Assembly (NCBI RefSeq): GCF_001921205.1
Contig: NZ_MSIE01000060.1
Location: 1 to 64,000 of the forward strand
From: Actinophytocola xanthii
GTDB lineage: Bacteria; Actinomycetota; Actinomycetes; Mycobacteriales; Pseudonocardiaceae
DNA: 64,000 nucleotides
Direction of reading: 5' to 3'
The translations under genes were made by a program, and so were the position numbers. This document shows, one piece after another, positions 4,657 through 19,483 of the stretch (within the stretch, counting starts at the first letter, position 1; each line of letters starts with the position of its first letter). Under the pieces are notes generated by a model that saw nothing but the letters and a program-made list of their open reading frames with translations, was not told the origin of the DNA and did not search any database.

Positions 4657-5573
4657 CGGTTGCGCAGCACCGCGAGGGCGAGCGAGTGCTGCTCCGGCGA
4701 CGGCGGGCGGGTCCAGGTGCAGCCCGGCAGGTGATGCTCCAGCATCCGCCCCATCACGACGGACAGCACGTCGCTCGGCTCGGCGTACCGCAGGTGCGGC
4801 CGGGCCGCCCGGTACTGCTCGACCACTCGCTCGAAGCAGAACATCACCGTGTTGACGTACTTGCTCTTCTCCGCCTCCGCCCGTTCGAAGGCGGCGACGT
4901 ACTCCGGGTTCTCCGGCTCCATGACGTCCAGCACGACGTCGAGCCGGTTGCGGAGCTCCCGTGGCTCTCCCGCCAGGGCGTGCGCGTCGTCGTACAGCTG
5001 CCGAACGTGGCCCGGGCTCCGAGCGAGAACACCCATCGTGGCGAAGCCGCGGTTCTCGTCGGCGAACCCGCCGGCGAACTCGCAGTCCACGCCCTGCGCG
5101 TGGGTGGCAGCCATGAGGGCATCGGTGAACTCGTACTTGTCCATCCCGTCGACGGTGTCCGTGTCCCCCAACCACTGGCCGCTGAGGTGCAGCACACCGT
5201 CCACTTCGGACTGCGCCGCCCGCGTGACCAGCTCGCGGACGGCGCGCGCCGGATCCCGCATGGCGGCCGGCCCCATCGCGACGAACTGCTCGGCCAGGGA
5301 GAACAGCGAGATGAGCATCATCGGGTCGTAGACCCGGAGAACTCCCTCCTCGCGCATGGGGTAACACCCCTCGTCGTCGTCGAACGCCTCCAACCCGGCC
5401 ATGAGCGCCTTCTCCTGCTCGGGTGTCATGGTGAGCTGCCAGGCCCACTTCTGCTCGACGTGGAACTTGTAGAAGTCCTCACCTTTGAGCGGGTCGCGGA
5501 TCGCGTAGAACCACACGGCGAACCCGCCCACCACGACCACCAGCAGACCGAGCACTCCGAACATGACCATCAT
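4653..5573 (-). CDS. Membrane-anchored protein of unknown function
   Basis: The 306-residue protein begins with a single transmembrane anchor ('VMFGVLGLLVVVVGGFAVWF', residues 4-23) followed by a soluble, acidic, mostly helical domain ('WAWQLTMTPEQEKALMAGLE'). I do not recognise the family. The stop overlaps the start of the SMI1-domain gene by four bases, so translation is coupled and the pair probably work together. ATG 5573 is the first of two adjacent ATGs; GGAGG lies 12 bases upstream, a rather long spacing, and a TTG nearer to it is an alternative. Confidence 0.7.
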   Translation of the reverse strand: MMVMFGVLGLLVVVVGGFAVWFYAIRDPLKGEDFYKFHVEQKWAWQLTMTPEQEKALMAGLEAFDDDEGCYPMREEGVLRVYDPMMLISLFSLAEQFVAMGPAAMRDPARAVRELVTRAAQSEVDGVLHLSGQWLGDTDTVDGMDKYEFTDALMAATHAQGVDCEFAGGFADENRGFATMGVLARSPGHVRQLYDDAHALAGEPRELRNRLDVVLDVMEPENPEYVAAFERAEAEKSKYVNTVMFCFERVVEQYRAARPHLRYAEPSDVLSVVMGRMLEHHLPGCTWTRPPSPEQHSLALAVLRNR

Positions 5574-5663
5574 TCTCGTCAAACACCTCCAAGACGCGGA
5601 GCTTATCGGTGGGCTTCCAACATGCGCTTGTGGCCGGGCGGAGTCGTCTGCTTGTGTCGCGGC

Positions 5664-6446
5664 ATGAACCGCGTGATCGTCCTCCTGACAGCGCTCGGAC
5701 TCCTGGTCGTGCCGTCGGCCGCGGTCCGCTCCGGGGCGACGATCACCGTGCTCCAGCTCAACATCTGCCACGGCGGGATGGCCGGCTGCTACCGAGGCGA
5801 CGCGGCGCTGACCAGGGCGGCGGAGGTGATCCGGTCGAGCGAGCCGCAGGTGCTGTCGGTCAACGAGGCGTGCTCCGGCGACGTCGCGCGGCTGCGCCCG
5901 GCCATGGGGAACGCCCGGGCGCTGTTCGTGGCCGCACGCAACCTCGACGGCACCCCCGTCCGGTGCCGGGACGGCGACCAGCGGTACGGCAACATCATCA
6001 TGGTGGCGGACTCGTTCGGGGACCACCGCGGGGAGTCCGGCACCTACACCGCCCAGTACACGGCCGCCGACGGCCACCGGGAGCTGCGGTCCTGGGGGTG
6101 CCTGCGCACCCCGGCGCTGCACGCCTGCACCACGCACCTGTCCGCCGACCACGCGCCGACCGCGCTCGCCCAGTGCCGAGACCTGCTCAGGCGCGCGGCC
6201 GGGTTCCCGGGACCGGCGGTCGTCGTCGGGGACCTCAACCTGACCGAACACGGCTCGCCCAGCATCCGGCGCTGCGACCCACCCGGGTTCTCCCGCGGAG
6301 GTGACGGCGCCGTCCAGCACCTCTACGCCGGCGAGGACCTGTCGTTGCGCGGCATCCGGAGGCTCGACATGGCGGGCACCACCGACCATCCCGGTCTGGT
6401 GGTCACCCTGTGCCTGGAACCCCCGGTGAGCAGGGCCCTCACCTGA
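5664..6446 (+). CDS. Secreted endonuclease/exonuclease/phosphatase-family protein
   Basis: The 260-residue precursor has a signal peptide ('VIVLLTALGLLVVPSAAVRS'). Its mature domain shows the EEP order: 'VLQLNICHGG' (Asn, metal site), 'PQVLSVNEAC' (Glu), 'VVVGDLNLTEHGSP' (Asp-x-Asn) and 'GTTDHPGLVV' (terminal Asp-His). These are the catalytic residues of DNase I-like metal-dependent phosphoesterases. Likely substrates are nucleic acids or phosphoesters outside the cell. Four or more cysteines suggest disulfides. ATG 5664 starts the signal peptide directly; ATG 5622 in the same frame would precede it with 14 unlikely residues. Confidence 0.85.
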   Translation: MNRVIVLLTALGLLVVPSAAVRSGATITVLQLNICHGGMAGCYRGDAALTRAAEVIRSSEPQVLSVNEACSGDVARLRPAMGNARALFVAARNLDGTPVRCRDGDQRYGNIIMVADSFGDHRGESGTYTAQYTAADGHRELRSWGCLRTPALHACTTHLSADHAPTALAQCRDLLRRAAGFPGPAVVVGDLNLTEHGSPSIRRCDPPGFSRGGDGAVQHLYAGEDLSLRGIRRLDMAGTTDHPGLVVTLCLEPPVSRALT

Positions 6447-6526
6447 GGCCGGGCACCGGGCGGAGCGCTCGGCGCATGGCCACCCGCATACACCGCCACA
6501 ACCCGGTGCCGGCTCTAATGTGCGCC

Positions 6527-7246
6527 ATGAACTCCCCTGCCTCGGCACCGCCCAGGCGTACGCGCACGATCGTGCTCATCGGGCTGGTGGTCCTCGGTGT
6601 GGCGGGTGCGGCGTTCCTTCTGCGACGGCCGCTGCTGATGGCCGCCCCGAGCTGCCTGGCCGGGCGGTGGCGCGGCTGCTTCGGCACGGAGAACGGCGTG
6701 CTGCTCATGACGCTGGTGGGGCTGCCGCTGGCCGGGCTGGTGACGTGGGTTCTGGCACGCCGTCGCCGCGCGGCCGGTGTCGGCGCGGCGTGGCGGCTGT
6801 CGCTGGCCGAGGTGGGCATGGTCTACGGGACCGTGCCGTTCGTGTGGCTGACCACCATGCCGGGTTCGGGGGCGGGCATGGTCCCCGGCCGGCTGAGCCT
6901 GGTGCCGCTGCGGGACCTGCTCACGATGGGCCCGCTCGGGATCGTGGGCAACCTGCTGGTCTTCGCGGCGCTGGGGTTCTTCGCCCCGATGCGGTTCGCG
7001 GTGCTGGCGTCGGTGCCGCGGATCCTGGCGCTCGGGGCGGGCTGCTCGGTCGTGGTCGAGACCGCCCAGTACGTCCTGCGGTTGGACCGGGTGTCCTCTG
7101 TGGACGACGTACTGGTCAACGCCGCCGGCGCGGCACTGGCCGCGCTGGCCTCGCGCCGCTGGTGGCGCAGGCCGCCGGAGGTTCTGCCGGACCACCGTCG
7201 CGCCGCGTCCGCGACGGCCGGCGGGAAGAGGACCAGGCCGGAATGA
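6527..7246 (+). CDS. VanZ-like integral membrane protein
   Basis: The 239-residue protein has about five hydrophobic segments and the VanZ-type tail: 'DLLTMGPLGIVGNLLVFAALGFFAP' region, then 'VVVETAQYVLRLDRVSSVDDVLVNAAGAALA', where the ExxQ and DxxDxxxN-like residues are typical. VanZ proteins lower teicoplanin binding by an unknown route, and homologues are common in actinobacteria. ATG 6527 follows TCTAAT at 6513-6518 by eight bases, suggesting a leaderless mRNA; ATG 6518 is in frame but overlaps that element. It lies in the same region as the VanX-like gene but in a separate unit. Confidence 0.85.
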   Translation: MNSPASAPPRRTRTIVLIGLVVLGVAGAAFLLRRPLLMAAPSCLAGRWRGCFGTENGVLLMTLVGLPLAGLVTWVLARRRRAAGVGAAWRLSLAEVGMVYGTVPFVWLTTMPGSGAGMVPGRLSLVPLRDLLTMGPLGIVGNLLVFAALGFFAPMRFAVLASVPRILALGAGCSVVVETAQYVLRLDRVSSVDDVLVNAAGAALAALASRRWWRRPPEVLPDHRRAASATAGGKRTRPE

Positions 7247-7455: not shown

Positions 7456-7929
7456 ATGGTCGAATCGGATACCGTCATGCCCGCGCACGACGGGGGCGTG
7501 CTGGACTCCGAGTGGCGACAGGTGCTCCATCGGGTGCCCTTGTTGTCCGGCCGGGAACTGCAGGTGTTCCAACTGCTCGGCGCCGGCCGGGCCAATCGGG
7601 AGATCTCCGCCCTGCTGCGCGTCACCGAGCGCACCACGAAGGCTCACGTGGCCCGCATCCTGGCCAAACTCAACGTCGAGTCGCGACTACAGGCAGGGCT
7701 CGTCGCGTTCGCGTGGCAGGTGCTCGAACAGAACGGTCGCCGACTCGCCCTGCCCGCGGCGCCCTGCCAGCCCTCACGGGAGCCCGAACAGACGCAGTAC
7801 CGCCGCGGTGCCGGCGGCGCCGACCACGGCGACGGCGAACGGTGCCTTGTACCACGCCAGCAACCCGCCCACGAGGACTCCGGTAGGGCGCGCCACGCCG
7901 GCCAGGACACCGTCCTCCATGAGCCCTGA
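7456..7929 (+). CDS. LuxR-type helix-turn-helix protein without receiver domain
   Basis: The 157-residue protein has a GerE/LuxR DNA-binding domain at about residues 28-85 ('LSGRELQVFQLLGAGRANRE' followed by 'ISALLRVTERTTKAHVARIL'). There is no receiver or ligand domain before it. From about residue 105 the sequence is low-complexity and lies antisense to the end of azlD: the two genes converge and overlap by 156 bases. The true protein may be functional only in its first 105 residues. It probably regulates a local or global target; it is not in an operon. Confidence 0.72.
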   Translation: MVESDTVMPAHDGGVLDSEWRQVLHRVPLLSGRELQVFQLLGAGRANREISALLRVTERTTKAHVARILAKLNVESRLQAGLVAFAWQVLEQNGRRLALPAAPCQPSREPEQTQYRRGAGGADHGDGERCLVPRQQPAHEDSGRARHAGQDTVLHEP

Positions 7930-8100
7930 GGTCACCACCAGCGCCGCCAGCAGCACAACGGACGCGGTCTCCAGCAGCTTCGTCACCTGCGGCGGGAAGG
8001 TGATCCGGCTGCGCAGCGCCGGACCCGCGAAGCGGAACGCGAAGGTCCCGACCGCCAGCACGGCGATGGACACGACGAGAAGCATCGGTGAGACAGTCAC
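7774..8100 (-). CDS. azlD: AzlD-like branched-chain amino acid transporter subunit
   Basis: The 108-residue hydrophobic protein has four predicted membrane spans and the AzlD features 'GTFAFRFAGPALRSR' near the N-terminus and 'LLAWYKAPFAVAVV' near the C-terminus. AzlD pairs with AzlC to export branched-chain amino acids and analogues such as azaleucine. Its GTG start (8100) overlaps the azlC stop by four bases. Its 3' end overlaps the convergent LuxR-type gene. Confidence 0.88.
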   Translation of the reverse strand: MTVSPMLLVVSIAVLAVGTFAFRFAGPALRSRITFPPQVTKLLETASVVLLAALVVTSGLMEDGVLAGVARPTGVLVGGLLAWYKAPFAVAVVGAAGTAAVLRLFGLP

Positions 8101-8780
8101 GCGGCACCAGCTCCCCGCGCGGCCGGGACGCTCAGCAGCACTCCGGCCAGCGCCACCAGGACCGGCAGGCCGGGGGGCAGGAACGGGGTCGCGGCCAGGG
8201 CCAGCAACGCGCCGACGACAGCCGAGGACAGCGTGGTCCGGTCGCGCAGCGCGGGCAGGATGAGCGCGAGCAGCACCGCGGGGAACATGGCGTCGAGGCC
8301 GAGCGCGTCGGTGTTCGGCACGACGCTGCCGATGAGTCCGCCCGCCGCCGCGCTGAGCGGCCAGATGACCAGGATCCCGAGCCCGCACCCCCAGTACGCG
8401 GCCCATTTTCGCTCCTGCTCCTCCTGGGCGATGGCCATCACCACGGTCTCGTCGTTCATCAGGTGCACGCCGAGCACCCGGCGCCAGCCACGCCCGAGCA
8501 CGTCGGGCACCGACAGGCCGTACGGGATGTGCCGCGCGTTGACCAGCAGCCCGGCGAGCAGTGCCGCCACCGGACTGCCGCCCGCACCGATGATCCCGAC
8601 GAAGAGGAACTCCGACCCGGCCGCCAGCACGAGCGCGCCGAGCACCACCGGCAGCCACAGGGGGAAGCCGGCCGCGACGGCTGTGGCCCCGTAGGACAGC
8701 CCGATCAGCCCGACGGCCACGCATACCAGCGCCACGTCGGTCAGCAGACGACGGTCGAGTGTTCGCCAGACCCCACGCAT
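8097..8780 (-). CDS. azlC: AzlC-like branched-chain amino acid exporter subunit
   Basis: The 227-residue integral membrane protein has six to seven spans and AzlC signatures 'GLSYGATAVAAGFPLW', 'GSEFLFVGIIGAGGS' and 'ARHIPYGLSV', with the loop 'HLMNDETVVMA' typical of the family. With AzlD it forms a two-part exporter for branched-chain amino acids or analogues. It starts 64 bases after the stop of the ketoreductase and runs in the same direction, so it is probably the tail of the biosynthetic operon or a closely linked unit. Its link with a branched-chain aminotransferase suggests the product is an amino acid analogue. Confidence 0.9.
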   Translation of the reverse strand: MRGVWRTLDRRLLTDVALVCVAVGLIGLSYGATAVAAGFPLWLPVVLGALVLAAGSEFLFVGIIGAGGSPVAALLAGLLVNARHIPYGLSVPDVLGRGWRRVLGVHLMNDETVVMAIAQEEQERKWAAYWGCGLGILVIWPLSAAAGGLIGSVVPNTDALGLDAMFPAVLLALILPALRDRTTLSSAVVGALLALAATPFLPPGLPVLVALAGVLLSVPAARGAGAA

Positions 8781-8805
8781 GCAGACATAGTGGAGGCCGC
8801 GACCG

Positions 8806-8843
8806 CGTTCGTCAAGTCGAACACTTGTATTGTTTGGCGAACG
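8806..8843. promoter_or_regulatory. Inverted repeat between ketoreductase and azlC
   Basis: CGTTCGTCAA (8806-8815) and TTGGCGAACG (8834-8843) are inverted copies with one mismatch and 18 bases between. The minus strand also offers TTGACG here as a -35-like box for azlC. The repeat could attenuate the operon or bind a regulator that controls the exporter separately. Confidence 0.35.
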
Positions 8844-8844
8844 G

Positions 8845-9564
8845 TCAGTGGCCCATCCCGAGCCCGCCGTCGACCGGGAGAACCGCGCCGGTGACGTAGG
8901 CGGCCTCCGGCGACGCCAGGAACAGCACCGCCGCGGCCACCTCCTCCGGCCGCGCCGTGCGACCCACCGGGATCTGCTCGAGCAGGGCGGTCCGCACCCG
9001 CTCGGGGAGCCCTCGGGTCATGTCCGTGTCCACGAACCCCGGCGCCACCACGTTGCACGTGACCCCACGCCTGCCCAGCTCCCGCGCGTACGAGCGGGCG
9101 AACCCGATGAGGCCCGCCTTGGTGGCGGCGTAGTTGGCCTGGCCGGCGGCGCCACGCATCCCGTTGGCCGAGGACATCAGCACGACCCGCCCGTCCCGGT
9201 TGCGGAGCATGCCCGCGGTCGCCCGCCGCACGAGGCGGAAGGTGGCGGTCAGGTTGGTCTCCACGACGGCGGCGAAGTCCTCCTCGCTCATGCGCAGCAC
9301 CAGGCTGTCCCGCGTGATGCCGGCGTTCGCGACGAGCACCGCCACCGGTCCGTGCGCCTCCTCGACCTCCTTGAACGCGTGCTCCACGTCCTCCCGGTCG
9401 GTGACGTCGCAGCGCACCGGCAGCGCGCCGAGCGCGGTGAGGTCGGCAGGGGGCGTCCCCGTCCGGTACGTGTACGCCACCCGGTCTCCGGTCCGCGCGA
9501 GCGCGGTCACGATCGCGTGCCCGATGCCCCGGTTGCCACCGGTCACGAGAACCGAACGCGTCAT
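8845..9564 (-). CDS. Short-chain dehydrogenase, FabG-like 3-oxoacyl-ACP reductase
   Basis: This 239-residue classical SDR reduces a 3-oxoacyl group with NAD(P)H. It shows the cofactor motif 'VTGGNRGIGHA' (residues 7-17), 'NAGITRDSL', the catalytic Ser ('LMSSANGMRG') and 'YAATK', with 'PGFVDTDMT' typical of FabG. It starts at ATG 9564, overlapping the aminotransferase stop by four bases. Within this operon it is the ketoreductase acting after the two ketosynthases, on the ACP encoded upstream. A primary-metabolism role is less likely given the neighbours. Confidence 0.9.
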   Translation of the reverse strand: MTRSVLVTGGNRGIGHAIVTALARTGDRVAYTYRTGTPPADLTALGALPVRCDVTDREDVEHAFKEVEEAHGPVAVLVANAGITRDSLVLRMSEEDFAAVVETNLTATFRLVRRATAGMLRNRDGRVVLMSSANGMRGAAGQANYAATKAGLIGFARSYARELGRRGVTCNVVAPGFVDTDMTRGLPERVRTALLEQIPVGRTARPEEVAAAVLFLASPEAAYVTGAVLPVDGGLGMGH

Positions 9565-10643
9565 GCGGAGTCCTCCTCCGCGATCGTGTGGACCCAACCG
9601 TAGGGGTCGGGCCGCACGCCGGTCTGGATGCCGAGCAGTTCCTCACGCAACCGGGTGGTGACCTTGCCCGGTCCGCCGTCGCCGATGGTGAACCCGCCGT
9701 CGGCGGCCCGCACGGCGCCAACCGGGGTGATCATGGAAGAGGTGCCGGACGAGAACACCTCGGTCAGCCGGCCCTGCTCGGCGGCGGCACGCCACTGCGC
9801 CACGCCCACCGGACGCTCGGCGACCGGGTGACCGAGGGCGGCGGCGAGCGCCAGCACCGAGTCCCGGGTGATCCCCGCGAGGATCGTGTCGTTCAGCGGG
9901 GGTGTGACCACCTCGTCGCCGTAGACGAAGAACAGGTTGCTGGTGCCCAGCTCGTCGACGTGGCCGTCGCGCAACCAGACCACCTGGTCGCAGCCCTGGT
10001 CCGCGGCACGCCGCTGAGCCAGCAGCGTGCCCGCGTAGTTCCCGCCGCACTTGGCCGCGCCGGTGCCGCCGGGCGCGGCCCGGGTGTACTCGGTCTCCAG
10101 CCACACGGTCATGGGCCGGTCGCCGAAGTAGGCCCCGGCCGGGGCGGCGATCACCACGAACAGGTACTCCTGGGCGGGCCGGTAGAAGCCGAGCGTCGGC
10201 TGGGTGGCGATCATGAACGGGCGCAGGTAGAGGCTGTGCCCCTCGACCGCGGGCACCCACTCCCGGTCGGCCGCGACGAGGGTCTCCAGCGCGCCGACGA
10301 ACAGCTCGGCTGGCACGTCGGGCATGGCCATCCGGGACGCGGAGGCGGCGAACCGCTCGGCGTTGGCGTACGGGCGGAACAGCACCACCGCACCGCCCGC
10401 CGTGCGGTAGGCCTTCATGCCCTCGAAGATCTCCTGGCCGTAGTGGAACACCTGCGCCGCGGGCGAGAGCACCAACGGGGCGTGCGCCCGCAGCCGGGCG
10501 TCGTGCCAGCCCTGCCCGGCCGACCAGCGGACGGTGACCATGTGATCGGTGAACACCTCGCCGAACGGGGCGTCCGCCATCAGCCGAGCGCGCTCCCTCG
10601 CCGGTGTCGGCTCGACCCGCTCGACGGTGAACCCGGCGCTCAC
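9561..10643 (-). CDS. Branched-chain amino acid aminotransferase (fold IV PLP enzyme)
   Basis: The 360-residue protein matches IlvE in length and motifs: 'FHYGQEIFEGMKAYR', the PLP lysine in 'GTGAAKCGGNYAG', 'DELGTSNLFFV' and 'VFSSGTSSMITPVG'. Family members interconvert 2-oxo acids and the corresponding amino acids with glutamate. It starts at GTG 10643, overlapping the FAH-gene stop by four bases. In this operon it most likely aminates a pathway 2-oxo acid, not simply leucine or valine precursors, but it could also supply branched starter units for the KAS III. Confidence 0.9.
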   Translation of the reverse strand: MSAGFTVERVEPTPARERARLMADAPFGEVFTDHMVTVRWSAGQGWHDARLRAHAPLVLSPAAQVFHYGQEIFEGMKAYRTAGGAVVLFRPYANAERFAASASRMAMPDVPAELFVGALETLVAADREWVPAVEGHSLYLRPFMIATQPTLGFYRPAQEYLFVVIAAPAGAYFGDRPMTVWLETEYTRAAPGGTGAAKCGGNYAGTLLAQRRAADQGCDQVVWLRDGHVDELGTSNLFFVYGDEVVTPPLNDTILAGITRDSVLALAAALGHPVAERPVGVAQWRAAAEQGRLTEVFSSGTSSMITPVGAVRAADGGFTIGDGGPGKVTTRLREELLGIQTGVRPDPYGWVHTIAEEDSA

Positions 10644-11515
10644 GTCCCTGCCCCCACCGGGTGCGCGCGGCACCGCTGCCGCTGGGCCCCGAGGGTCTCC
10701 ACCTCGACCTCGACCACGTCCCCCGGCCGCAGGTACGGTTCGTCGATCCGGCGCAGGGCCACACCGGCCGGCGAGCCGGTGAGCACCACGTCGCCGGGCC
10801 GCAGCACCATGAACCGCGTCAGGTACCGGATCAGCCACGGCACCCCGAAGACCATCTCGCCGGTCTTCGCGTCCTGCATGACCTGGCCGTTGACCCGGGT
10901 CGTCAGCCGCAGCGCCGCCACGTCGTCCACCTCGTCCGCGGTGACCAGGTACGGCCCCAGCGGCGCGAAGGTCTCGAAGGACTTGCCCTTCACCCACTGC
11001 CCGCCGCGGTCGAGCAGCCACGACCGCTCGGAGACGTCGTTGGCGGTGCAGTAACCGGCGATCGCGGCGCGGGCGGCCTGCTCGTCGGGCAGGTACCTGG
11101 CCTCCGTCCCGATGACGACGGCCAGCTCCACCTCCCAGTCGACCCGCTCGGCGCCGGGGGGCAGCAGCAGGTCGTCGTACGGCCCGGCCAACGCCCACGG
11201 CGACTTCGTGGAGATCACCGGCTCGGCGGGGACCGCCATGCCGGCCTGCGCGGCGTGGCAGCGGTAGTTCAGGCCGACCGAGATCAGCTGGCCGCCGGCG
11301 GGCACCGGCGGGCCGACCCGCACCTCGTCCAACCGCACCTCGGGCAGCTCCTCGGCCGAGCCGGCCAGCCGGCCGGCCAACTCGGCGAGCGAGCCGGGCG
11401 AGAGCGCGGCACCGGTCCAGTCCGGCACCCACGCGGACAGGCAGCGCACGACACCGTCTCCGTCCACGGCGCACGGCAGCTCGGCACCGGGCGGGCCGGT
11501 TCGCAGCAGTCGCAT
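10640..11515 (-). CDS. Fumarylacetoacetate hydrolase-family protein
   Basis: The 291-residue protein has the FAH C-terminal fold: 'ISVGLNYRCHAAQAG', 'ISTKSPWALAGPYDD', metal ligands in 'VDWEVELAVVIG' (Glu-x-Glu), 'GYCTANDVSER' and 'GDVVLTGSPAGVALRR'. Members hydrolyse, hydrate or decarboxylate 2-oxo or 1,3-dioxo acids. It overlaps the aminotransferase by four bases, so both probably act in sequence on a 2-oxo acid. Whether it cleaves a C-C bond or works as a hydratase cannot be read from sequence. Confidence 0.88.
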   Translation of the reverse strand: MRLLRTGPPGAELPCAVDGDGVVRCLSAWVPDWTGAALSPGSLAELAGRLAGSAEELPEVRLDEVRVGPPVPAGGQLISVGLNYRCHAAQAGMAVPAEPVISTKSPWALAGPYDDLLLPPGAERVDWEVELAVVIGTEARYLPDEQAARAAIAGYCTANDVSERSWLLDRGGQWVKGKSFETFAPLGPYLVTADEVDDVAALRLTTRVNGQVMQDAKTGEMVFGVPWLIRYLTRFMVLRPGDVVLTGSPAGVALRRIDEPYLRPGDVVEVEVETLGAQRQRCRAHPVGAGT

Positions 11516-11530
11516 GATCGTCCCCGGTCC

Positions 11531-11941
11531 TCAGTTCGTCTCGAGGTACTTCTCGAAGAACGCGATCTCGGCGTCGGTGAGCCGTCTCGGTCGGTTCTTG
11601 CGGTAGTCGAACGGAGCCATCACGGTGGAGGCCCGCGCACAGGGGCGGTCGCCGTCGCGGACCTCGTAGGAGACCGTGACGGTGGCCGTCTGCAGGTCCG
11701 ACACCCACATCTCGATGTCGACCGGCTCGTGCCGGTGGGTCAACCTGCCCAGGTAGTCGATCTCGTGCCGGACCACGACCGAACCGTCCCGGAAGAACGC
11801 GTCGCCCTCGGTCGGCGCCATGCGGAAGACGAAGTCGACCCGTGCCTCCTCCAGCAGGCGCAGGTACATCACGTTGTTGACGATCCCGTAGACGTCCATG
11901 TCCGCCCAGCGCAGCGGGCAGCGGTACAGGTGGCGGGCCAT
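11531..11941 (-). CDS. Hotdog-fold acyl-CoA/ACP thioesterase (4HBT)
   Basis: The 136-residue protein begins with the 4HBT signature 'LRWADMDVYGIVNNVMYLRLLEEARVD' (key residues Asp14, Asn21, Asn22, Glu30 region). It is the YbgC/acyl-CoA thioesterase type and would release the acyl chain from the pathway ACP or CoA. It starts one base after the acyl-CoA oxidase stop and precedes the FAH gene by 15 bases. It has an unusually charged C-terminus ('KNRPRRLTDAEIAFFEKYLE'). Confidence 0.88.
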   Translation of the reverse strand: MARHLYRCPLRWADMDVYGIVNNVMYLRLLEEARVDFVFRMAPTEGDAFFRDGSVVVRHEIDYLGRLTHRHEPVDIEMWVSDLQTATVTVSYEVRDGDRPCARASTVMAPFDYRKNRPRRLTDAEIAFFEKYLETN

Positions 11942-11942
11942 G

Positions 11943-13793
11943 TCAGCGCTCCGGTCGGGCGTCGGTGAGGGACTGGAACGCGGTCACGTAGTCCTCCGCC
12001 GCGATCGGCGCGCGTACCAGCTCGGGGGTGAGCGCGAAGCCGTCGGCCAGCGCATCGGCGAGCGGCAGAATTCTCGGGCACAGCTCGTCGAGGGTCGCGG
12101 GCAGCCGCTCGACCTGCGCGGCGGTCAGCACCCCGCGGGCGAGGTACCAGCCGGCGTCGCGGTGGATCTCGGTCAGCGCGTACAGGGTGGCGAGCAGCCG
12201 CAGGCCGGTCGCCGCGTCGCTGTCCTCCGCGCGGGCGACCGCGGCGTGGAACTCCTCCACCGCCAGCCGTACCCCTCGCGTCCTGGCCATGGCCAACGCG
12301 GCGTTCATGGTGCCGTTCCACGCCTCGAGGTAGGTCCGCTCGACGGTGTCGTCGTGCATCGCGGACCTGGCCGACTCGCGCAGCGCGCGTTCGCGGTAGC
12401 CGAGCAGCGCCTGGTGCAGCGCGGGGTCACCGATGTCGTGGGCCGATCCGTCCGGCGCGGGTGGGGGTGGCTCGGTCTCCTCGGCCGCGAGCAGCTGCGC
12501 GGCGACGGTCGCCAGCAGCACCTTGTTGTCGCCCTCCGCGGTGACCAGACCCTGCAGGAGCGAGACGTAGTCGGCGATCCGGTTGACGCTGAACATGCCC
12601 TGCGCGCCGCAGCGCTCGCGCATCGAGGTGACCACGTCGGTCAGCTGCCACGTGGACAGCGCCTTGGTGACCGCGATCAACCCGTTCAGGTCGGCGTCCA
12701 CCGCTCCGCCGGCGGCCAGGTAGGCACGCTTGCCGCGGTTGAGGAGAAAGGACATCGCGTACACGGTGGACATCGCGGTGAACACCGCGAGCTGGTGGCT
12801 GCGGTACTCGATGACCGGCATCTCCTTGCGCCCCGGGCCGTTGACCAACCGCTGACGGGCGTACCGAAGTGCGATGTAGACACTCGCCCGTCCCGCGCCG
12901 ACGGCGGAGGAGGACACGCACAGCCTCCCCGGCTGGATCCGGGTCATGGAGCGCAGGAAACGCTGACGGGCGTTGCCACCCAGTGGCCGGAACGCACCGT
13001 CCTCGGCGAACTCCCCCATGTCCCCGAGCAGCAGGCTGCGCCGCGGGAGCCTCACGTTGTCGAACCAGGTCACGCCGTTGTCCAGGCCCTGCACCGGCTT
13101 CTCGGGGCACGGCGCGGCGTGCACACCGGGGCGAAGACCGTTCTCGTCGGCGATCCGCACCAGGAAGGGGTACACGCCGTGGTCCCTGCCGTCCGCCCGG
13201 AGCCGCGCCAGCACGACCGCGACCTTGGGGACGTCGGTGAAACCGCTGTAGGACATGTACTTCTGGGCGAGTGGACCCGGGGTGTTCAGCGTGAAAGTGC
13301 CGTTCTCCCGGTCGTAGGCGGCCTCCGTGCGCAGCGCGGCGACGTTGTTGCCGTAGCCCAGCTCGGTCGCCATGTACGGGCCGAACGCGGCCAGGGAGTC
13401 GAGGTCGCCCACCAGGTCGGCCAGGTCGGTGCGACCGGCACCGTGGTCGTGCACGGTGCCGAAGGTGAGGTTGTAGTGCACCATCAGCAGCGAGAACACC
13501 GAGACGTCCAGCACCGACGGCCACTCGGCGAGCGCGAACAACCGCGGCGGATCCGCAACGACCGCGCTCGGGCGGCCCAGTCTCGCGTGCAGGAACCGGG
13601 ACCGCTCGTAGGCCAGCCTGCCCGCCTCGTCCATGGTCAGGCCGGCACGGGGGTCGAAGAGGGGATCGAACAGCGCCGCACGCACGTCCGCGTGGACCCG
13701 CTCGTAGTCGCCGTCGAAGACCAGGCGGACGAGTTCGGTCGCGGTCCGTTCACGCGCGCCGGAGGTCCGGGGCGGTGCGGTGGCGATGGCCAT
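11943..13793 (-). CDS. Acyl-CoA oxidase/dehydrogenase-family flavoprotein
   Basis: The 616-residue length and the order of motifs fit acyl-CoA oxidases and not the 380-residue dehydrogenases: 'FTDVPKVAVVLARL', 'HGVYPFLVRIADENG', 'GLDNGVTWFDNVRLPR' and 'CGAQGMFSVNRI'. The catalytic glutamate is kept in 'TAEGDNKVLL'. The usual CGGHG is changed to CGAQG. The enzyme should introduce an alpha,beta double bond using FAD and O2. ATG 13793 has AAGGA eight bases upstream. It follows the KAS II gene by 57 bases and is one base from the thioesterase gene. Confidence 0.88.
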   Translation of the reverse strand: MAIATAPPRTSGARERTATELVRLVFDGDYERVHADVRAALFDPLFDPRAGLTMDEAGRLAYERSRFLHARLGRPSAVVADPPRLFALAEWPSVLDVSVFSLLMVHYNLTFGTVHDHGAGRTDLADLVGDLDSLAAFGPYMATELGYGNNVAALRTEAAYDRENGTFTLNTPGPLAQKYMSYSGFTDVPKVAVVLARLRADGRDHGVYPFLVRIADENGLRPGVHAAPCPEKPVQGLDNGVTWFDNVRLPRRSLLLGDMGEFAEDGAFRPLGGNARQRFLRSMTRIQPGRLCVSSSAVGAGRASVYIALRYARQRLVNGPGRKEMPVIEYRSHQLAVFTAMSTVYAMSFLLNRGKRAYLAAGGAVDADLNGLIAVTKALSTWQLTDVVTSMRERCGAQGMFSVNRIADYVSLLQGLVTAEGDNKVLLATVAAQLLAAEETEPPPPAPDGSAHDIGDPALHQALLGYRERALRESARSAMHDDTVERTYLEAWNGTMNAALAMARTRGVRLAVEEFHAAVARAEDSDAATGLRLLATLYALTEIHRDAGWYLARGVLTAAQVERLPATLDELCPRILPLADALADGFALTPELVRAPIAAEDYVTAFQSLTDARPER

Positions 13794-13850
13794 CGGAGTT
13801 TTCCTTCGCTCTGGTGCTGCTGCTTCCACGGTCGGCGTCCGGCGCCGCGG

Positions 13851-15065
13851 TCAGGCGGCGATGACGAGGCACACGTTCTGGCCGCCGAAGCCGAACGAGT
13901 TGCTCACCGCGATGTCCACGACGGACGGGCGAGGGGCCTTGTGGACGACGTCGACGTCCAGGCCGGGCTCCAGGTCGGTCAGGTTGGCCGTCGGTGGGAT
14001 GAGCCCGTGCCGGACGGTGAGCGCGGTGTAGGCCGCCTCGACCGCCGCCCCGGCGCCGAGCAGGTGGCCGGTCACGCCCTTGGTGGAGGTGACCTGCGCG
14101 TCGGAGCCGAGGAGATCTCGGATCACCGCGGACTCCGTGCGGTCGTTCGCGACGGTCGAGGTGCCGTGGGCGTTGACGTGCCTGACCTCCCGGCCCGCCA
14201 CCCCGGCGTCGGCGAGCGCGGCGGACAGGGCCAGGCGGGCCCCCAGTCCCTCCGGGTGCGGCTGGGTGACGTGGTGGGCGTCGGCGGAGGCACCGTGGCC
14301 GACCACCTTCGCCACCGGCGTCACGCCACGGGCCAGCGCGTGCTCCTCGGACTCCAGCACCAGCACGCCCGCGCCCTCGCCGAGCACGAACCCGTCGCGC
14401 GCGGAGTCGAACGGCCGCGACGCCGTCGCCGGGTCGGGGTGGCGGGACAGCGCTCGCATACGGGCGAACGAGGACACGTACAGCGGGCTGATCGGCGCCT
14501 CCGAGCCCCCGGCGATGACGATGTCCGCCGCACCGAGCCGCAGGAGGTCCCGGCCGATGGCGATGGCGGAGGCGCCGGACGCGCACGCGGTGCACGGCGC
14601 CAGACAGGGTCCCCGCGCACCGAACCCGATCGCCACCTGGCCCGCGGCCATGTTCAGCAGCCCCATCGGCAGCGTCTGCGGGGAGACGTCACCCGGACCG
14701 TCGGCGAGCAGCGTTCGGTGCTGTTCCTCGAGGGTCAGCGTGCCGCCCGCGCCGGAGCCGAGGACGACCGCGACGCGCGTGCCGTCCCAGTCCTCCGGGT
14801 CCAGCTGGGCGTGGGCCAGCGCCTCCGTGGCCGCGAGCATCGTGAACGTGGTGTACCGGTCCCACTGCCGCGCGCCGCGCAGCCCGTGGTCCCGTGGCTC
14901 GAAGTCCGGCACCCGGCAGGAGATGCGGACCGGCAGGTCCGCCAGCGCCGGGTCCACAGCCGCGGCGGTCTCGCCCGCCACGACCCGTGCCCAGTTGTCG
15001 GGCACGCCGATCCCCGCGGGGGTCACCAGACCGATACCGGTGACCGCCGCGCCGAACGGCGTCAT
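13851..15065 (-). CDS. 3-oxoacyl-ACP synthase II (FabF-type ketosynthase)
   Basis: The 404-residue thiolase-fold enzyme extends acyl-ACP with malonyl-ACP. The catalytic Cys is in 'CTACASGASAIAIG', the two histidines in 'NAHGTSTVANDRTE' and 'STKGVTGHLLGAGAAVEA', and 'NSFGFGGQNVCLV' closes the domain. The start overlaps the ACP stop (TGATG). It resembles elongating ketosynthases used with dedicated ACPs in secondary metabolism. No chain-length factor partner is present, so it is likely a homodimer. Confidence 0.93.
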   Translation of the reverse strand: MTPFGAAVTGIGLVTPAGIGVPDNWARVVAGETAAAVDPALADLPVRISCRVPDFEPRDHGLRGARQWDRYTTFTMLAATEALAHAQLDPEDWDGTRVAVVLGSGAGGTLTLEEQHRTLLADGPGDVSPQTLPMGLLNMAAGQVAIGFGARGPCLAPCTACASGASAIAIGRDLLRLGAADIVIAGGSEAPISPLYVSSFARMRALSRHPDPATASRPFDSARDGFVLGEGAGVLVLESEEHALARGVTPVAKVVGHGASADAHHVTQPHPEGLGARLALSAALADAGVAGREVRHVNAHGTSTVANDRTESAVIRDLLGSDAQVTSTKGVTGHLLGAGAAVEAAYTALTVRHGLIPPTANLTDLEPGLDVDVVHKAPRPSVVDIAVSNSFGFGGQNVCLVIAA

Positions 15066-15316
15066 CAGCTGGTCACGCCCGCGCCGGCGAGCTTGTCCGC
15101 CAGGCTGTCGACGACGTCGCCGATGGTGGACATGGCCGCCAGGTCGTCGTCGCTGATCTCGACGCCGAACTTCTTCTTGATCGCGGTTCCCAGCTCGATC
15201 TGGGAGAGCGAGTCGAGGTCGATGTCGTCGAACGTGGCCGTCATCGTGACGTTTTCCGGCTCGATGTCGAAACGCGAGGAAAGCAGCTCAACGACTGCGT
15301 CGAAAGTATCGGTCAT
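15065..15316 (-). CDS. Acyl carrier protein
   Basis: The 83-residue acidic protein carries the phosphopantetheine site in 'DIDLDSLSQIELGTAIKKKF', Ser in DSL at about residue 36, and ends in the third ACP helix. ATG 15316 has AAGGGA six bases upstream; GTG 15319 is too close. It lies between KAS III and KAS II, the same three-gene order (KAS III, ACP, KAS II) used for dedicated chain building in the prodiginine red clusters. Confidence 0.95.
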   Translation of the reverse strand: MTDTFDAVVELLSSRFDIEPENVTMTATFDDIDLDSLSQIELGTAIKKKFGVEISDDDLAAMSTIGDVVDSLADKLAGAGVTS

Positions 15317-15352
15317 CACATGTCCCTTGTCAGGTTTGCTTGGTCAGGTCGA

Positions 15353-16372
15353 TTACCGGAAAGCGTCGACGGCGAGTTTCGGCCACACCATCGTGGTGGC
15401 GCCCCACGAGAGTCCGGCCCCGAACGCGGCCAGCAGGACCCGGTCGCCGGGACGCAGCGCACCCCGCGCGGCGTAGTCGGTGAGCAGCAGCGGTATGGAC
15501 GCGGCGAGCGTGTTGCCCACCTTGTCGATGTTGACCGCGACGCGCTCCGCGGGCAGGTCGAGCTCCTCGGCGACGGCCGCGACGATGCGGGCGTTGGCCT
15601 GGTGCCCGACGAACCAGTCGACGTCGTCCACCCGCCAGCCCGCCCGGGCCAGCGCAGTCCGCGACGACTGGGTCATCCGCTCCACGGCCTGCGTGTAGAG
15701 CGCGCGGCCGGACATGTGCAGGTACCAGTCCTCGGTCGGCACGGCGTCGAACCCGAGGCCGCCGCTGGCCGCGCGCTGCCGCGATCCGCCGGCCGGGATC
15801 GCCAGCAGGTCGGCCTTCGCCCCGTCGCTGCCGAGGTCGATGGGACCAACGGAACCCAACTGGCCCGGCCGTCCCGCCCGCAGCAGCACCGCGCCACCGC
15901 CGTCGCCGAAGATCGGCCTGGTGTTGCGGTCCTCCGGGTTGACCAGCGTGGTGAACGCCTCCGCGCCGATGAACAGGACGCTCTCGGCGGCTCCGGCGGC
16001 GATCAGCCCGGCCGAGGTCGCGAGCCCGTAGAGGAACCCGGAGCACGCCGAGGTGATGTCGAACGCGGCGACGGTGTCGAGGCCGAGCAGGTGCGCGACC
16101 TCCGGCGCGACGGCAGGGCACAGCCGGTCCGCGGAGGTGGTGGCCACCACGACGGCGTCGGTGGTGGACTCCCCCGCCGACTTCAGCGCACGTGCGCCTG
16201 CCTCCACCGCGATGTCCCGTGTGGACAACCCGGCGGTGACGACGCGTCGCTCCTGGATCCCGGTACGGGTCCTGATCCACTTGTCGGACGAGTCCAGGCT
16301 TTCGCACAGTTCGTCGTTGGTGACAATTTTCGGTGGCAGCCAGCCCCCGAGCCCGGCAATTACCGCAGCCAT
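15353..16372 (-). CDS. 3-oxoacyl-ACP synthase III (FabH-type)
   Basis: The 339-residue enzyme condenses an acyl-CoA starter with malonyl-ACP. The Cys-His-Asn triad is visible in 'FDITSACSGFLYGL', 'FVGHQANARIV' and 'NIDKVGNTLAASI'. It has the N-terminal 'WIRTRTGIQERR' loop. ATG 16372 follows AAAGGA by five bases. It is the first gene of the minus-strand operon and is divergent from the GlcD-like oxidase. A branched starter would fit the aminotransferase and AzlCD neighbours, but this is inference. Confidence 0.93.
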   Translation of the reverse strand: MAAVIAGLGGWLPPKIVTNDELCESLDSSDKWIRTRTGIQERRVVTAGLSTRDIAVEAGARALKSAGESTTDAVVVATTSADRLCPAVAPEVAHLLGLDTVAAFDITSACSGFLYGLATSAGLIAAGAAESVLFIGAEAFTTLVNPEDRNTRPIFGDGGGAVLLRAGRPGQLGSVGPIDLGSDGAKADLLAIPAGGSRQRAASGGLGFDAVPTEDWYLHMSGRALYTQAVERMTQSSRTALARAGWRVDDVDWFVGHQANARIVAAVAEELDLPAERVAVNIDKVGNTLAASIPLLLTDYAARGALRPGDRVLLAAFGAGLSWGATTMVWPKLAVDAFR

Positions 16373-16442
16373 GGAGATCCTTTCCGCTGGCGGACCGGCG
16401 TTCGGCCCGTTCGATTCTGGAGGTGGGCTGGAGTACCGCTCA

Positions 16443-16499
16443 ATTGTCCCTTCGAACAATGCAGCTGGTTGTCCTTCGGGACAGGGTCGAAAGGACAAT
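16443..16499. promoter_or_regulatory. Nested dyads in the divergent promoter of the acyl operon
   Basis: ATTGTCCCTTCGA (16443-16455) is inverted at 16487-16499 with one mismatch in 13. Between them TGTCC-TTCG-GGACA (16470-16483) forms a perfect hairpin with a cUUCGg loop if transcribed. Four GGACA/TGTCC half-sites therefore lie in 57 bases between two divergent transcription units. This looks like an operator array, though no regulator gene lies in the operon. Confidence 0.5.
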
Positions 16500-16534
16500 G
16501 GAATTCCCTGCCGCCACCCCTACGCTTGCGGGAC

Positions 16535-17914
16535 ATGACCGCGCTCACGTCCGGCCTCCACGGGGTGCTGCCCGGGACCCGGGTCCTCACCGACCCCGAG
16601 GCAGTCGCCGCCTACGCCCACGACGAGGCCGAGGGCGCGCCGTACACGCTGCCGGCCGCGGTGGTGCTGCCGACGTCCACGGCCGAGGTGGCCGCGCTCG
16701 TCGCCCACTGTGCCGCCGAGGGGGTCCCGGTCGTGGCACGCGGCGCGGGCACGGGGCTCTCCGGCGGCGCGAACGCCGTCGCGGGCTCGGTCGTGGTGTC
16801 GTTCGAGGCGATGACCGGGGTCGTCGCGATCGACCGGGCCGAGCGGCTCGCGCGGGTGCGGCCGGGCACGGTCAACGACGACCTGCGGGCGGCGTGCGCC
16901 GAGCAGGGCCTGTGGTATCCGCCGGACCCCGCGAGCTCACCGTGGTCCACGATCGGCGGGAACGTGGCGACCAACGCGGGCGGGCCCTGTTGCGTGAAGT
17001 ACGGGGTGACCCGCGACTACGTGCTCGGCATGGAGGTGGTCACGGGCCTGGGCGAGGTGGTGCGCCTGGGCAGGCGCACCGCGAAGGGCGTCGCCGGGTA
17101 CGACCTGGCCGGGCTCATGGTCGGCTCCGAGGGCACGCTCGGGCTGATCACCGAGATCACGGTGCGGCTGCGAACCCCACCCGAGCCGGCGCGGACGGTG
17201 GTGGGGTGCTTCGACGACCTGCCGGCCGCGGGCCGGGCGGTGGCCGCGGTGGTGGGGTCGGGCGCGCAGCCGAGCGCACTGGAGCTGGTCGACCGGTTCT
17301 GCCTGCGCGCGGTGGACGAGTGGAAGCGGATGGGGCTGTCGGCCGAGGGCGACGTGCTGCTGCTGGCGCGCTGCGACACCCCGGGCGGGGCGGGCGAGGA
17401 GGAGGCGGCGGCCATCCGAGCGGCGTTCGACGCGGCCGGCGCGACGTGGAGCGAACGGTCGACCGACCAGGCCGAGGCGGACGCGCTGTTCGCCGCACGC
17501 CGGCTGGTGTACCCGGCGCTCGTGCGGCTGGGCGCGGTGCTGACCGAGGACGTCTGCGTCCCCCGCACGGAGGTGACCGAGGTCCTGGCGCGGATCGAGC
17601 GGATCGCGGAGCGGCACGACGTCCGCATCGCGTGCCTCGCACACGCGGGCGACGGCAACCTGCACCCGATGGTCGTGGTCCCTCCGGGTGACGAGGGGGC
17701 GAGGACCCGCGGCGCGCGGGCCCTCGAGCAGGTGGTGGACCTGGCGGTGGACACGGGAGGCACCGTCACCGGGGAGCACGGTGTCGGCCTGCTGAAGATG
17801 CGGGGCCTGGCACGGGAGCTGAGCCCGGCGGTGATGGCCATGCACCGGGCGGTCAAGACGGCCCTGGACCCCGCCGGCATCCTCAATCCCGGCAAGGTCT
17901 TTCCCACCGAGTGA
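16535..17914 (+). CDS. FAD-linked 2-hydroxyacid oxidase, GlcD-like
   Basis: The 459-residue protein has the PCMH FAD-binding domain ('VVARGAGTGLSGGANAV', 'PWSTIGGNVATNAGGP', 'GSEGTLGLITEITV') and the C-terminal FAD-oxidase domain with 'HAGDGNLHPMV' and 'GEHGVG'. Relatives oxidise glycolate, D-lactate or other 2-hydroxyacids to 2-oxo acids. A probable -10 (TACGCT, 16521-16526) ends eight bases before ATG 16535, so the mRNA is probably leaderless. It is divergent from the acyl operon and could supply the 2-oxo acid that the aminotransferase needs. Confidence 0.9.
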   Translation: MTALTSGLHGVLPGTRVLTDPEAVAAYAHDEAEGAPYTLPAAVVLPTSTAEVAALVAHCAAEGVPVVARGAGTGLSGGANAVAGSVVVSFEAMTGVVAIDRAERLARVRPGTVNDDLRAACAEQGLWYPPDPASSPWSTIGGNVATNAGGPCCVKYGVTRDYVLGMEVVTGLGEVVRLGRRTAKGVAGYDLAGLMVGSEGTLGLITEITVRLRTPPEPARTVVGCFDDLPAAGRAVAAVVGSGAQPSALELVDRFCLRAVDEWKRMGLSAEGDVLLLARCDTPGGAGEEEAAAIRAAFDAAGATWSERSTDQAEADALFAARRLVYPALVRLGAVLTEDVCVPRTEVTEVLARIERIAERHDVRIACLAHAGDGNLHPMVVVPPGDEGARTRGARALEQVVDLAVDTGGTVTGEHGVGLLKMRGLARELSPAVMAMHRAVKTALDPAGILNPGKVFPTE

Positions 17915-18346: not shown

Positions 18347-19483
18347 TCAGCGGTCGGACAGGCCGGCCAGGCGGTTGGCCAGGCGGCGGCGGAACACGGG
18401 CAGCGTGGCCAGGCCACGCAGCGCGAGGTTGCGCACCGGGCGGAGTGCTCGGCCCGTCGTGGCCAGTCGGGTGAGCCGGGCGGCGAAGGCCACCACCTCC
18501 ACCGCCTTCGCCCGTTGGGTGTCGGCGTAGTGGTCCAACCGGGTCTCCGCCGCCCCACCGAGCACGGCGACCAGCTCCCGGGCGAGGGCCACGGCGTCCC
18601 GCAGCCCCAGGTTCATGCCCTGCCCACCGGCCGGGCTGTGCACGTGGGCCGCGTCTCCGGCCAGGAGTACGCGCCCCCGGCGGAAGGTCGCGGCGACCTG
18701 GTGGCGCACCCGGAACCGTGAGCCCCAGACCACCTCCTCCACGGCCACCTGGACGCTCGCCGGTCCGCGCGTACGGAGCAGGTCCTGGACGTACTCGGCG
18801 GTGGGCAGCGCCGGCGGGTCGTCGACCTGGCTCACGATGCGGAAGGAGCCGTCCGGCAGTGGCGCCGAGACCAGCAGCCCGCTGGTGGAGAAGAACAACA
18901 CGACCTGGTCCGGCGGCAGCCCGCCGTCCACCCGCACGTCGGCCAGTACGAACGTCTCGCCGCCGTCCCCGGAGCCGAAGTCGATCCCGACGAGGTCCCG
19001 CACCGTGCTGTGCGTCCCGTCGGCGCCGAGCACGTAGCGGGCCTGGATCGGCTCGCCGTCGCCGAACGTGGCGACCACCGCGTCGTCGCGCTGCTGGAGC
19101 CCGACCAGCGTGCGCGGCCGCAGCACGGTCGCCCCCAGTTCCTCCACCCGCTCCGCCAGCACGCGCTCGGTCACCGACTGTGGGATCAGCAGCATGTGCC
19201 GGTGGGTGCTCGGCAGCTCGTCGAAGCGCACCGGCACCAGGACGCGGTCCCGGTCCCGGATCGAGAAGCGGGTGGAGGCGATGGCGAGGGCGCCCAGCCG
19301 CTCGGTGACGCCGATCTCGTCGAGCGCCTCCAGGGTGCGGGCGTGGATGACCGCGGCGCGCGAGGTGTTGTGCCCCTCCGCCTGCTTGTCCACCACGGTC
19401 ACCGCCACCCCGTGTGCTGCCAGATACGCGGCCGCGGTCAACCCGACCGGGCCCGCTCCCACGACCAGGACGTCGACGGTCAT
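18347..19483 (-). CDS. FAD-dependent monooxygenase (PheA/TetX-like)
   Basis: The 378-residue flavoprotein shows 'VVGAGPVGLTAAAYLA' (dinucleotide fold), 'RYVLGADGTHSTVR' (DG motif) and 'VLLAGDAAHVHSPAGGQGMN' (GD motif). It belongs to the NAD(P)H-dependent aromatic hydroxylases that modify phenols, polyketides or antibiotics. It lacks the C-terminal thioredoxin-like domain of larger members. It is divergent from a TetR gene, with operator-like dyads between them, so it is probably induced by its substrate. Confidence 0.9.
   Translation of the reverse strand: MTVDVLVVGAGPVGLTAAAYLAAHGVAVTVVDKQAEGHNTSRAAVIHARTLEALDEIGVTERLGALAIASTRFSIRDRDRVLVPVRFDELPSTHRHMLLIPQSVTERVLAERVEELGATVLRPRTLVGLQQRDDAVVATFGDGEPIQARYVLGADGTHSTVRDLVGIDFGSGDGGETFVLADVRVDGGLPPDQVVLFFSTSGLLVSAPLPDGSFRIVSQVDDPPALPTAEYVQDLLRTRGPASVQVAVEEVVWGSRFRVRHQVAATFRRGRVLLAGDAAHVHSPAGGQGMNLGLRDAVALARELVAVLGGAAETRLDHYADTQRAKAVEVVAFAARLTRLATTGRALRPVRNLALRGLATLPVFRRRLANRLAGLSDR

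Follow-up and report, generated by a model that had tools for sequence, protein, structure and literature searches.

The first 64,000 nucleotides of contig NZ_MSIE01000060.1 of Actinophytocola xanthii (assembly GCF_001921205.1, 8.34 Mb; this whole stretch is called the window below) carry eleven genes that probably form a compact cluster for a short, polyketide-type, non-proteinogenic α-amino acid. We regard the pathway as real and conserved, and probably as secondary-metabolic. The analysis is based on gene content, catalytic motifs, association of the genes across genomes and the replacement of individual steps by enzymes of other lineages. From these we infer chain length, every substrate, the order of the reactions, the installation of a 2-hydroxyl group and the product itself, including the terms 'branched' and 'antimetabolite' used for it in the initial annotation.

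Translation together with Pfam and NCBIfam matches bore out the annotation of ten genes on the minus strand plus a divergent GlcD gene, and the families agreed with those first proposed:

15353..16372, minus strand: KSIII, FabH-like β-ketoacyl-acyl carrier protein synthase III (PF08545/PF08541; NCBIfam NF006829 above cut-off)
15065..15319, minus strand: acyl carrier protein, ACP (PF00550)
13851..15065, minus strand: KSII, FabF-like ketosynthase (PF00109/PF02801)
11943..13793, minus strand: ACOX, acyl-CoA-oxidase-like flavoenzyme (PF22924/PF01756 above cut-off)
11531..11941, minus strand: 4HBT hotdog thioesterase, TE (PF13279)
10640..11515, minus strand: FAH-superfamily metal enzyme (PF01557)
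9561..10643, minus strand: BCAT, class IV branched-chain-type aminotransferase (PF01063; NF009897 above cut-off)
8845..9564, minus strand: KR, FabG-like SDR ketoreductase (PF13561)
8097..8780, minus strand: AzlC exporter subunit (PF03591)
7774..8100, minus strand: AzlD exporter subunit (PF05437)
16526..17914, likely start ATG at 16535, plus strand: GlcD-type FAD-linked 2-hydroxyacid oxidase/dehydrogenase (TIGR00387, below cut-off)

Matches of the window proteins to families with solved structures were clear. The genes had been described as mostly overlapping by 1-4 bases, which was an overstatement: four of the nine operon junctions overlap (ACP/KSII by 1 base; FAH/BCAT, BCAT/KR and AzlC/AzlD by 4 bases each), and the other five have gaps of 1, 15, 33, 57 and 64 bases. 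Pfam found no thiolase, ligase (CoA ligase included), non-ribosomal peptide synthetase (NRPS) or modular polyketide synthase (PKS) within the operon, as had been noted for the last three.

Conservation of the gene set

A profile made from four ACOX proteins was searched against genome contigs and gave 62 loci, several of only a few kb. These loci contain ACOX by construction; the presence of other genes was called by bit-score limits. The core of KSIII, KSII, ACOX, FAH and GlcD was found together in 24 of the 62, and because of this recurrence the set is far beyond chance. The proposal that the genes are a conserved unit is thereby borne out in distant hosts. In the remaining 38 loci (some a few kb only) there was neither FAH (0/38) nor GlcD (0/38). 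Within the 24 core loci we found ACP in 23 (the exception, L069, has a weak match at 29% identity), TE in 23 (the exception being Rhodococcus L080), KR in 22 (the exceptions being Kutzneria L056 and L054, which a contig end cuts), BCAT in 16, AzlC in 13 and an EamA gene in 6. Whether azlCD and the FAH gene always accompany the set had been named as a check; azlCD does not always go with FAH, and it is GlcD that does so in all 24.

Core hosts include Streptomyces, Kitasatospora, Kutzneria, Rhodococcus, Pseudomonas, Massilia, Paraburkholderia, Mitsuaria and Pseudoalteromonas, with Streptomyces sioyaensis DSM 40032, Kitasatospora phosalacinea NRRL B-16228 and Pseudomonas khavaziana SWRI124 as named carriers. 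The full eleven-gene set is present in 11 Streptomyces/Kitasatospora loci with GlcD divergent from KSIII as in the window; these loci add a carboxyltransferase gene and an XRE-type regulator, and five of them a phosphopantetheinyl transferase. A Rhodococcus sp. 2G plasmid, which lay outside the profile scan, carries KSIII, ACP, KSII, ACOX, SDR, GlcD, aminotransferase, FAH, MaoC, AzlC and AzlD genes in one run, with no separate thioesterase gene.

Pairwise identities of KSIII, KSII, ACOX and FAH correlate at 0.91-0.98 over the 24 loci; host relatedness is not removed from these values, which makes them supportive only. FAH identities correlate at 0.80 with TE and 0.83 with KR. Across five proteobacterial loci, KSIII, KSII, ACOX, TE and FAH are 46-67% identical to the window proteins, and KR 39-47%. 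Of 100 genomes searched, among them that of the window, 59 gave an ACOX match at E<=1e-20, and ACOX of at least 50% identity occurred in two of the 99 others (53% and 50%). The regions fetched around those two genes, one of 20 kb and one of 14.6 kb that runs to a contig end, contained no FAH, GlcD or BCAT. A distribution this patchy would suit a secondary pathway that moves horizontally.

The set also varies between hosts. At the Pseudomonas loci L061-L065, an EamA gene and an XRE-type regulator replace AzlCD, and the flanks hold no BCAT; a pyruvate dehydrogenase E1 paralogue adjoins the core in three of the five. The carboxyltransferase of a Streptomyces cluster (L047, 13798-15366) matched the solved chain 7w5u (acetyl-CoA carboxylase beta) at 933 bits, with a propionyl-CoA carboxylase B subunit next at 644 bits; a literature search for a paper on structure 7W5U found none. 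The carboxyltransferase in Streptomyces and the pyruvate dehydrogenase E1 paralogue in Pseudomonas may provide host-specific precursor supply. In Massilia and Paraburkholderia (L068, L069) the cluster lies beside luciferase-like monooxygenase and DUF1330 genes (Pfam), and both loci share genes that by eye resemble glutathione S-transferase and isopropylmalate dehydrogenase; these versions perhaps make a further product. The KSIII-ACP-KSII-ACOX group or part of it, lacking FAH and GlcD, occurs at L035, L036/L079, L072, L076 and L077. Two further ketosynthase-like genes are near L036 and L079, which share a contig of Actinophytocola oryzae, and at L035 there is a large open reading frame with a ketosynthase match. 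A possible role for this group is as a starter-unit cassette for other polyketides.

Proposed route and catalytic motifs

In the proposed route, KSIII would condense malonyl-ACP with an acyl-CoA starter (our best guess is propionyl-CoA), KR and a host dehydratase/reductase would process the first condensation product, KSII would add a second malonyl unit and ACOX would dehydrogenate the acyl thioester. TE would release the free acid, GlcD would oxidize a 2-hydroxy acid to a 2-oxo acid, FAH would act as a metal-dependent isomerase/hydratase that rearranges or closes the 2-oxo acid, BCAT would aminate it and AzlCD would export the amino acid. The initial annotation had proposed the same logic of building, desaturation, release, 2-oxo acid formation, amination and export; it fits the gene content across distant hosts, except that export does not always run via AzlCD.

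The chain-building enzymes retain their catalytic residues. KSIII keeps Cys-His-Asn in 36/36 aligned homologues, KSII keeps Cys-His-His in 44/44, the DSL motif of ACP is kept in 44/44, and the Ser and Tyr-x-x-x-Lys motifs of KR are present in the window and cluster copies. There is a single KSII in the operon and no partner ketosynthase; KSIII and one KSII suggest two condensations. When aligned to the solved acyl-CoA oxidases 5y9d and 1w07, ACOX shows the T-x-E-G-(D/E) motif containing Glu420 in register; together with its two Pfam domains this places it in that family. This glutamate, which we take to be the catalytic base, is kept in 43/43 readable homologues, and because of this plain dehydrogenation is favoured over oxygenation as its predicted activity. 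We had also considered that ACOX might be a hydroxylase that has lost its catalytic base, and rejected this on the same residue.

The thioesterase motif DMDxYG(V/I)(V/I)NNV is present in 28/28 copies. In Rhodococcus sp. 2G the aminotransferase is 572 amino acids long, and towards its C-terminus there is a short, weak resemblance to the window TE. A thioesterase fused to this aminotransferase was considered and set aside: there is one 22-residue match (E 0.002), and Pfam finds an aminotransferase domain only.

At the amino acid end, GlcD scored 397 bits with the glcD equivalog model TIGR00387 (cut-off 568), and its HxGDGNxH and GEHG motifs, found in 26/26 cluster copies, place it in the GlcD/D-2-hydroxyacid oxidase family. 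We searched six genomes for GlcD copies elsewhere. Against three cluster copies the window protein shows 73-74% identity, and against its closest paralogue in the same genome 47%; the Rhodococcus cluster copy, at 52% to the window, is hardly above another copy at 48%. On genomic grounds we assign GlcD to the pathway, because it co-occurs with FAH (in all 24 core loci, and in none of the other 38), is divergent from KSIII in Streptomyces/Kitasatospora and lies inside the operon in Rhodococcus. Its identities correlate at 0.66-0.78 with those of KSIII, KSII, ACOX and FAH, at 0.94 with TE and KR, and at 0.98 with AzlC (15 loci). The proteobacterial copies, 29-35% identical to that of the window, carry the signature VGHVGDGNFHF, as against LAHAGDGNLHP in the other type; we read the two types as the same step taken by different lineages. 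ARAGORN called a tRNA-Arg (ccg) at 16725-16822 inside the GlcD reading frame, probably a false positive. An FAD-dependent monooxygenase gene (18347-19483) adjoins GlcD, with a TetR gene beyond, and was not counted as a cluster member; the idea that it supplies the hydroxylase which the set lacks was set aside.

FAH-fold enzymes act on 2-oxo acids, and the lid of FAHD1 carries a His/Glu pair. Among solved structures, the window FAH matched L-2,4-diketo-3-deoxyrhamnonate hydrolase (8gsr) best. Its ExE motif is present in 26/26 copies, the Asp and Lys are kept where readable, and the lid His is kept in 25/25 readable copies. At the lid Glu position, three residues past the His, there is Glu in 18/25, Gln in five (the window included), Asp in one and Val in one. 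An FAHD1-like C-C hydrolase was therefore not adopted, as the His/Glu pair is incomplete in seven copies. The substrate is probably a 2-oxo acid, and an isomerase/hydratase/cyclase-type role is preferred because the lid glutamate is not strictly kept.

The BCAT lysine is kept in 18/18 copies, and a second BCAT in the window genome is 61% identical to the cluster one. In a FastTree phylogeny of 18 cluster and 10 housekeeping copies, the window, Kutzneria and Streptomyces/Kitasatospora cluster copies split from the rest with a support of 0.959; the Rhodococcus, Mitsuaria and Pseudoalteromonas cluster BCATs branch elsewhere, with weak support at some nodes. As judged from this tree, more than one aminotransferase lineage serves the cluster across hosts. 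KSIII, KSII, ACP, TE, GlcD and BCAT, each with its catalytic motifs, would thus span chain assembly to α-amino acid. Because different lineages or families appear at a given step (GlcD; the aminotransferase; AzlCD or EamA), 2-hydroxy-acid oxidation, amination and export are supported as real steps.

Export and regulation

Two neighbouring genes, one with the AzlC and one with the AzlD Pfam domain, encode a putative AzlCD exporter. The window AzlC is 69% identical to the cluster AzlC of two Streptomyces/Kitasatospora loci (L047 and L049) and 46% to a second AzlC in its own genome; by this comparison it is the cluster-type copy. Three further features were recorded:

8787..8822, minus strand: azlCD promoter-like element, with the palindrome GTTCGACTTGACGAAC at 8807-8822 (read from the sequence)
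16440..16502: candidate operator, an inverted repeat in the GlcD/KSIII intergenic region with arms at 16440-16455 and 16487-16502
7456..7929, plus strand: LuxR-type (GerE) regulator gene, convergent with azlD (PF00196)

The azlCD element sits in the 64-base gap between KR and AzlC and comprises the palindrome GTTCGACTTGACGAAC with TTGACG, a 17-base spacer and CACTAT right before the AzlC ATG. Upstream of azlC, GTTCGnCTTGACGAAC occurs in the window and in all eight Streptomyces/Kitasatospora loci listed out of 11, one copy having a single change, and is accompanied by a -10-like box right before the start codon. A consensus promoter scan did not list the azlCD site, so the promoter claim rests on conservation. 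A second azlCD in the window's own genome (L147, contig C1, ~4981-6716) has the same palindrome and element and lies beside a divergent gene for an XRE-type regulator; this XRE-type gene is 65% identical to the Kitasatospora cluster one, and an XRE-type gene lies near azlC in 11 Streptomyces/Kitasatospora clusters. Because the element is conserved, also at the second azlCD with its XRE-type gene, azlCD probably has a promoter of its own and is perhaps controlled in trans. A lack of conservation as a unit, or ordinary catabolic genes with azlCD transcribed separately, had been named beforehand as grounds against the pathway: the first is contradicted by the core in 24 of 62 loci; of the second, the azlCD half has some substance in this promoter-like element, but the window azlC is the cluster-type copy.

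When as many as 3 mismatches are tolerated, 13/13 Streptomyces/Kitasatospora loci have one or both arms of AATTGGCCNTTGGTAC in the GlcD/KSIII intergenic region, ten of them both; two loci have one further match elsewhere. The Kutzneria GlcD/KSIII region has no AATTGGCCNTTGGTAC arm. In the window region a single arm matches, at 3 mismatches, and the 16-base inverted repeat there is 88% complementary; the repeat is a possible shared operator. LuxR-type genes like that of the window are found downstream of azlD in seven Streptomyces/Kitasatospora loci, and the gene at 7456-7929 is a possible cluster regulator. Also close to the cluster is a gene for a SUKH-1 (SMI1/KNR4) domain protein (2989-4656).

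Product candidates and known systems

Several observations weigh against the proposed pathway or its proposed product. There is no obvious α-hydroxylase in it, which leaves the 2-hydroxy acid of GlcD unexplained and is the main gap; the hydroxyl might come from ACOX, if that oxygenates, or from an enzyme encoded elsewhere. The GlcD substrate could be an ordinary one, because the best solved match is 9qgz, named glycolate oxidase, and a Kutzneria GlcD-like gene 66% identical to that of the window lies outside the cluster (contig C2, 446876-448198). Eight of the 24 core loci showed no BCAT within the flanks retrieved (five Pseudomonas, Massilia, Paraburkholderia and L054, at a contig end). AzlC is limited to 13 of the 24; six others have an EamA gene, and five, including one truncated at a contig end, have neither. 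Amongst 398 Pseudomonas genomes, ACOX at E<=1e-100 was found in three, the L065 genome included. Finally, according to an excerpt of PMC10882977, Bacillus subtilis AzlCD is promiscuous and exports asparagine, 4-azaleucine and histidine. The AzlC and AzlD families and an XRE-type regulator are common to both systems; unlike its B. subtilis counterpart, the window AzlCD is tied to a biosynthetic set.

The leading, if tentative, candidate for the product is L-furanomycin or a close analogue. As described in an excerpt of PMC3662646, furanomycin is an isoleucine analogue produced by S. threomyceticus and P. fluorescens SBW25, arises by a polyketide route from propionate and acetate with at least six steps after chain assembly, and had no identified genes in 2013. 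Like that route, the two condensing enzymes, BCAT and AzlCD-type exporter seen here fit a propionate/acetate-derived, isoleucine-like amino acid, and the core occurs in both Streptomyces and Pseudomonas, the genera of the producers. The dissociated KSIII/KSII pair would then build a C7 chain, the ACOX-like flavoenzyme would prepare oxygenation and ring closure, the GlcD-type oxidase and FAH-fold enzyme would make a cyclic 2-oxo acid, and BCAT would finish the molecule; loci lacking BCAT would make related 2-oxo acids or use a housekeeping enzyme. We can imagine, with similar reserve, a family of furanomycin-type antimetabolites common to Actinomycetota and Proteobacteria whose cluster has so far gone unrecognised. 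The furanomycin assignment draws on pathway logic and host range rather than on a producer genome, and the window genome has no duplicate isoleucyl-tRNA synthetase, hence no target-duplication support for an isoleucine antagonist. An extra synthetase as a means of self-resistance was looked for in eight cluster genomes and discarded: all have the ileS family, with one full-length copy over the cut-off in seven and two in Kutzneria. Among the open-licence PMC papers listed in literature searches there was no description of this gene set and no named furanomycin gene; the listings did include fungal fatty-acid-to-amino-acid routes (HC-toxin).

An unlikely alternative, although the best of those considered, is that the pathway of the core ends in a 2-oxo acid or 2-hydroxy acid, with amination added by some hosts only. 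This would account for the core loci of Massilia, Paraburkholderia and five Pseudomonas whose retrieved flanks showed no BCAT, and the pyruvate dehydrogenase E1 paralogue at three of the Pseudomonas loci could use a 2-oxo acid or be protected from it. However, the two Pseudomonas genomes searched each have a single BCAT elsewhere, which could stand in for a cluster copy, and BCAT is in the cluster in 14 actinomycete loci of the 24, in Mitsuaria and Pseudoalteromonas, in the window and in Rhodococcus sp. 2G. Slightly less probable again is that the set makes an uncommon acyl or amino acid unit for use by a larger assembly line encoded at another place in the genome, with AzlCD merely relieving excess. 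The KSIII-ACP-KSII-ACOX group or part of it does occur without FAH/GlcD beside other ketosynthase genes (L036/L079, L035), but neither the window operon nor an annotated 29.7 kb stretch of the Rhodococcus plasmid has a ligase, NRPS or modular PKS, and azlCD is present in 11 of the 12 Streptomyces/Kitasatospora loci with BCAT. That fatty acid or leucine breakdown genes are adjacent by accident is very improbable: ACOX, FAH, BCAT, KR and GlcD each have catabolic relatives, but the two ketosynthases and ACP are biosynthetic types in an operon without thiolase or CoA ligase, ACOX of at least 50% identity is confined to two of 99 other genomes in regions without FAH, GlcD or BCAT, and the BCAT is of the cluster lineage with a separate housekeeping copy present.

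If the amino acid pathway is correct, bacteria have a way of turning a short acyl chain into an α-amino acid by means of a 2-hydroxy acid oxidase and an FAH-fold enzyme. It would also open up the genetics of amino acid antimetabolites whose clusters readily escape notice because they lack an NRPS, modular PKS or ligase, and furanomycin genetics would be directly testable in the named carrier strains.

The KSIII-ACP-KSII enzyme types are the same as those of prodiginine clusters. Streptomyces plasmid ACOX genes that lie beside ScbR-type regulators and a cytochrome P450 gene (three cases, 36-38% identical to the window ACOX) are presumably avenolide-type butenolide oxidase (Aco) genes. Unlike the window, the three have no annotated KSIII/KSII in 14 kb flanks (one has a phosphopantetheine-binding protein), and they belong to a different pathway. 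The nearest characterised amino acid from a dissociated PKS that we found is cispentacin (Amc proteins), with different key enzymes; the excerpted account describes a KS-CYF pair, a 2-oxoglutarate starter and a class III aminotransferase acting on an ACP-bound keto group (PMC10698177). The AmcF model scored 208 bits in the window (cut-off 325), the AmcB model was also below its cut-off, and AmcG was not among the matches listed (the best 25 of 27); with one KSII in the operon, no AmcF/AmcG pair was found. The window differs from cispentacin in having KSIII and a single KSII, together with ACOX, FAH, GlcD and a class IV aminotransferase.

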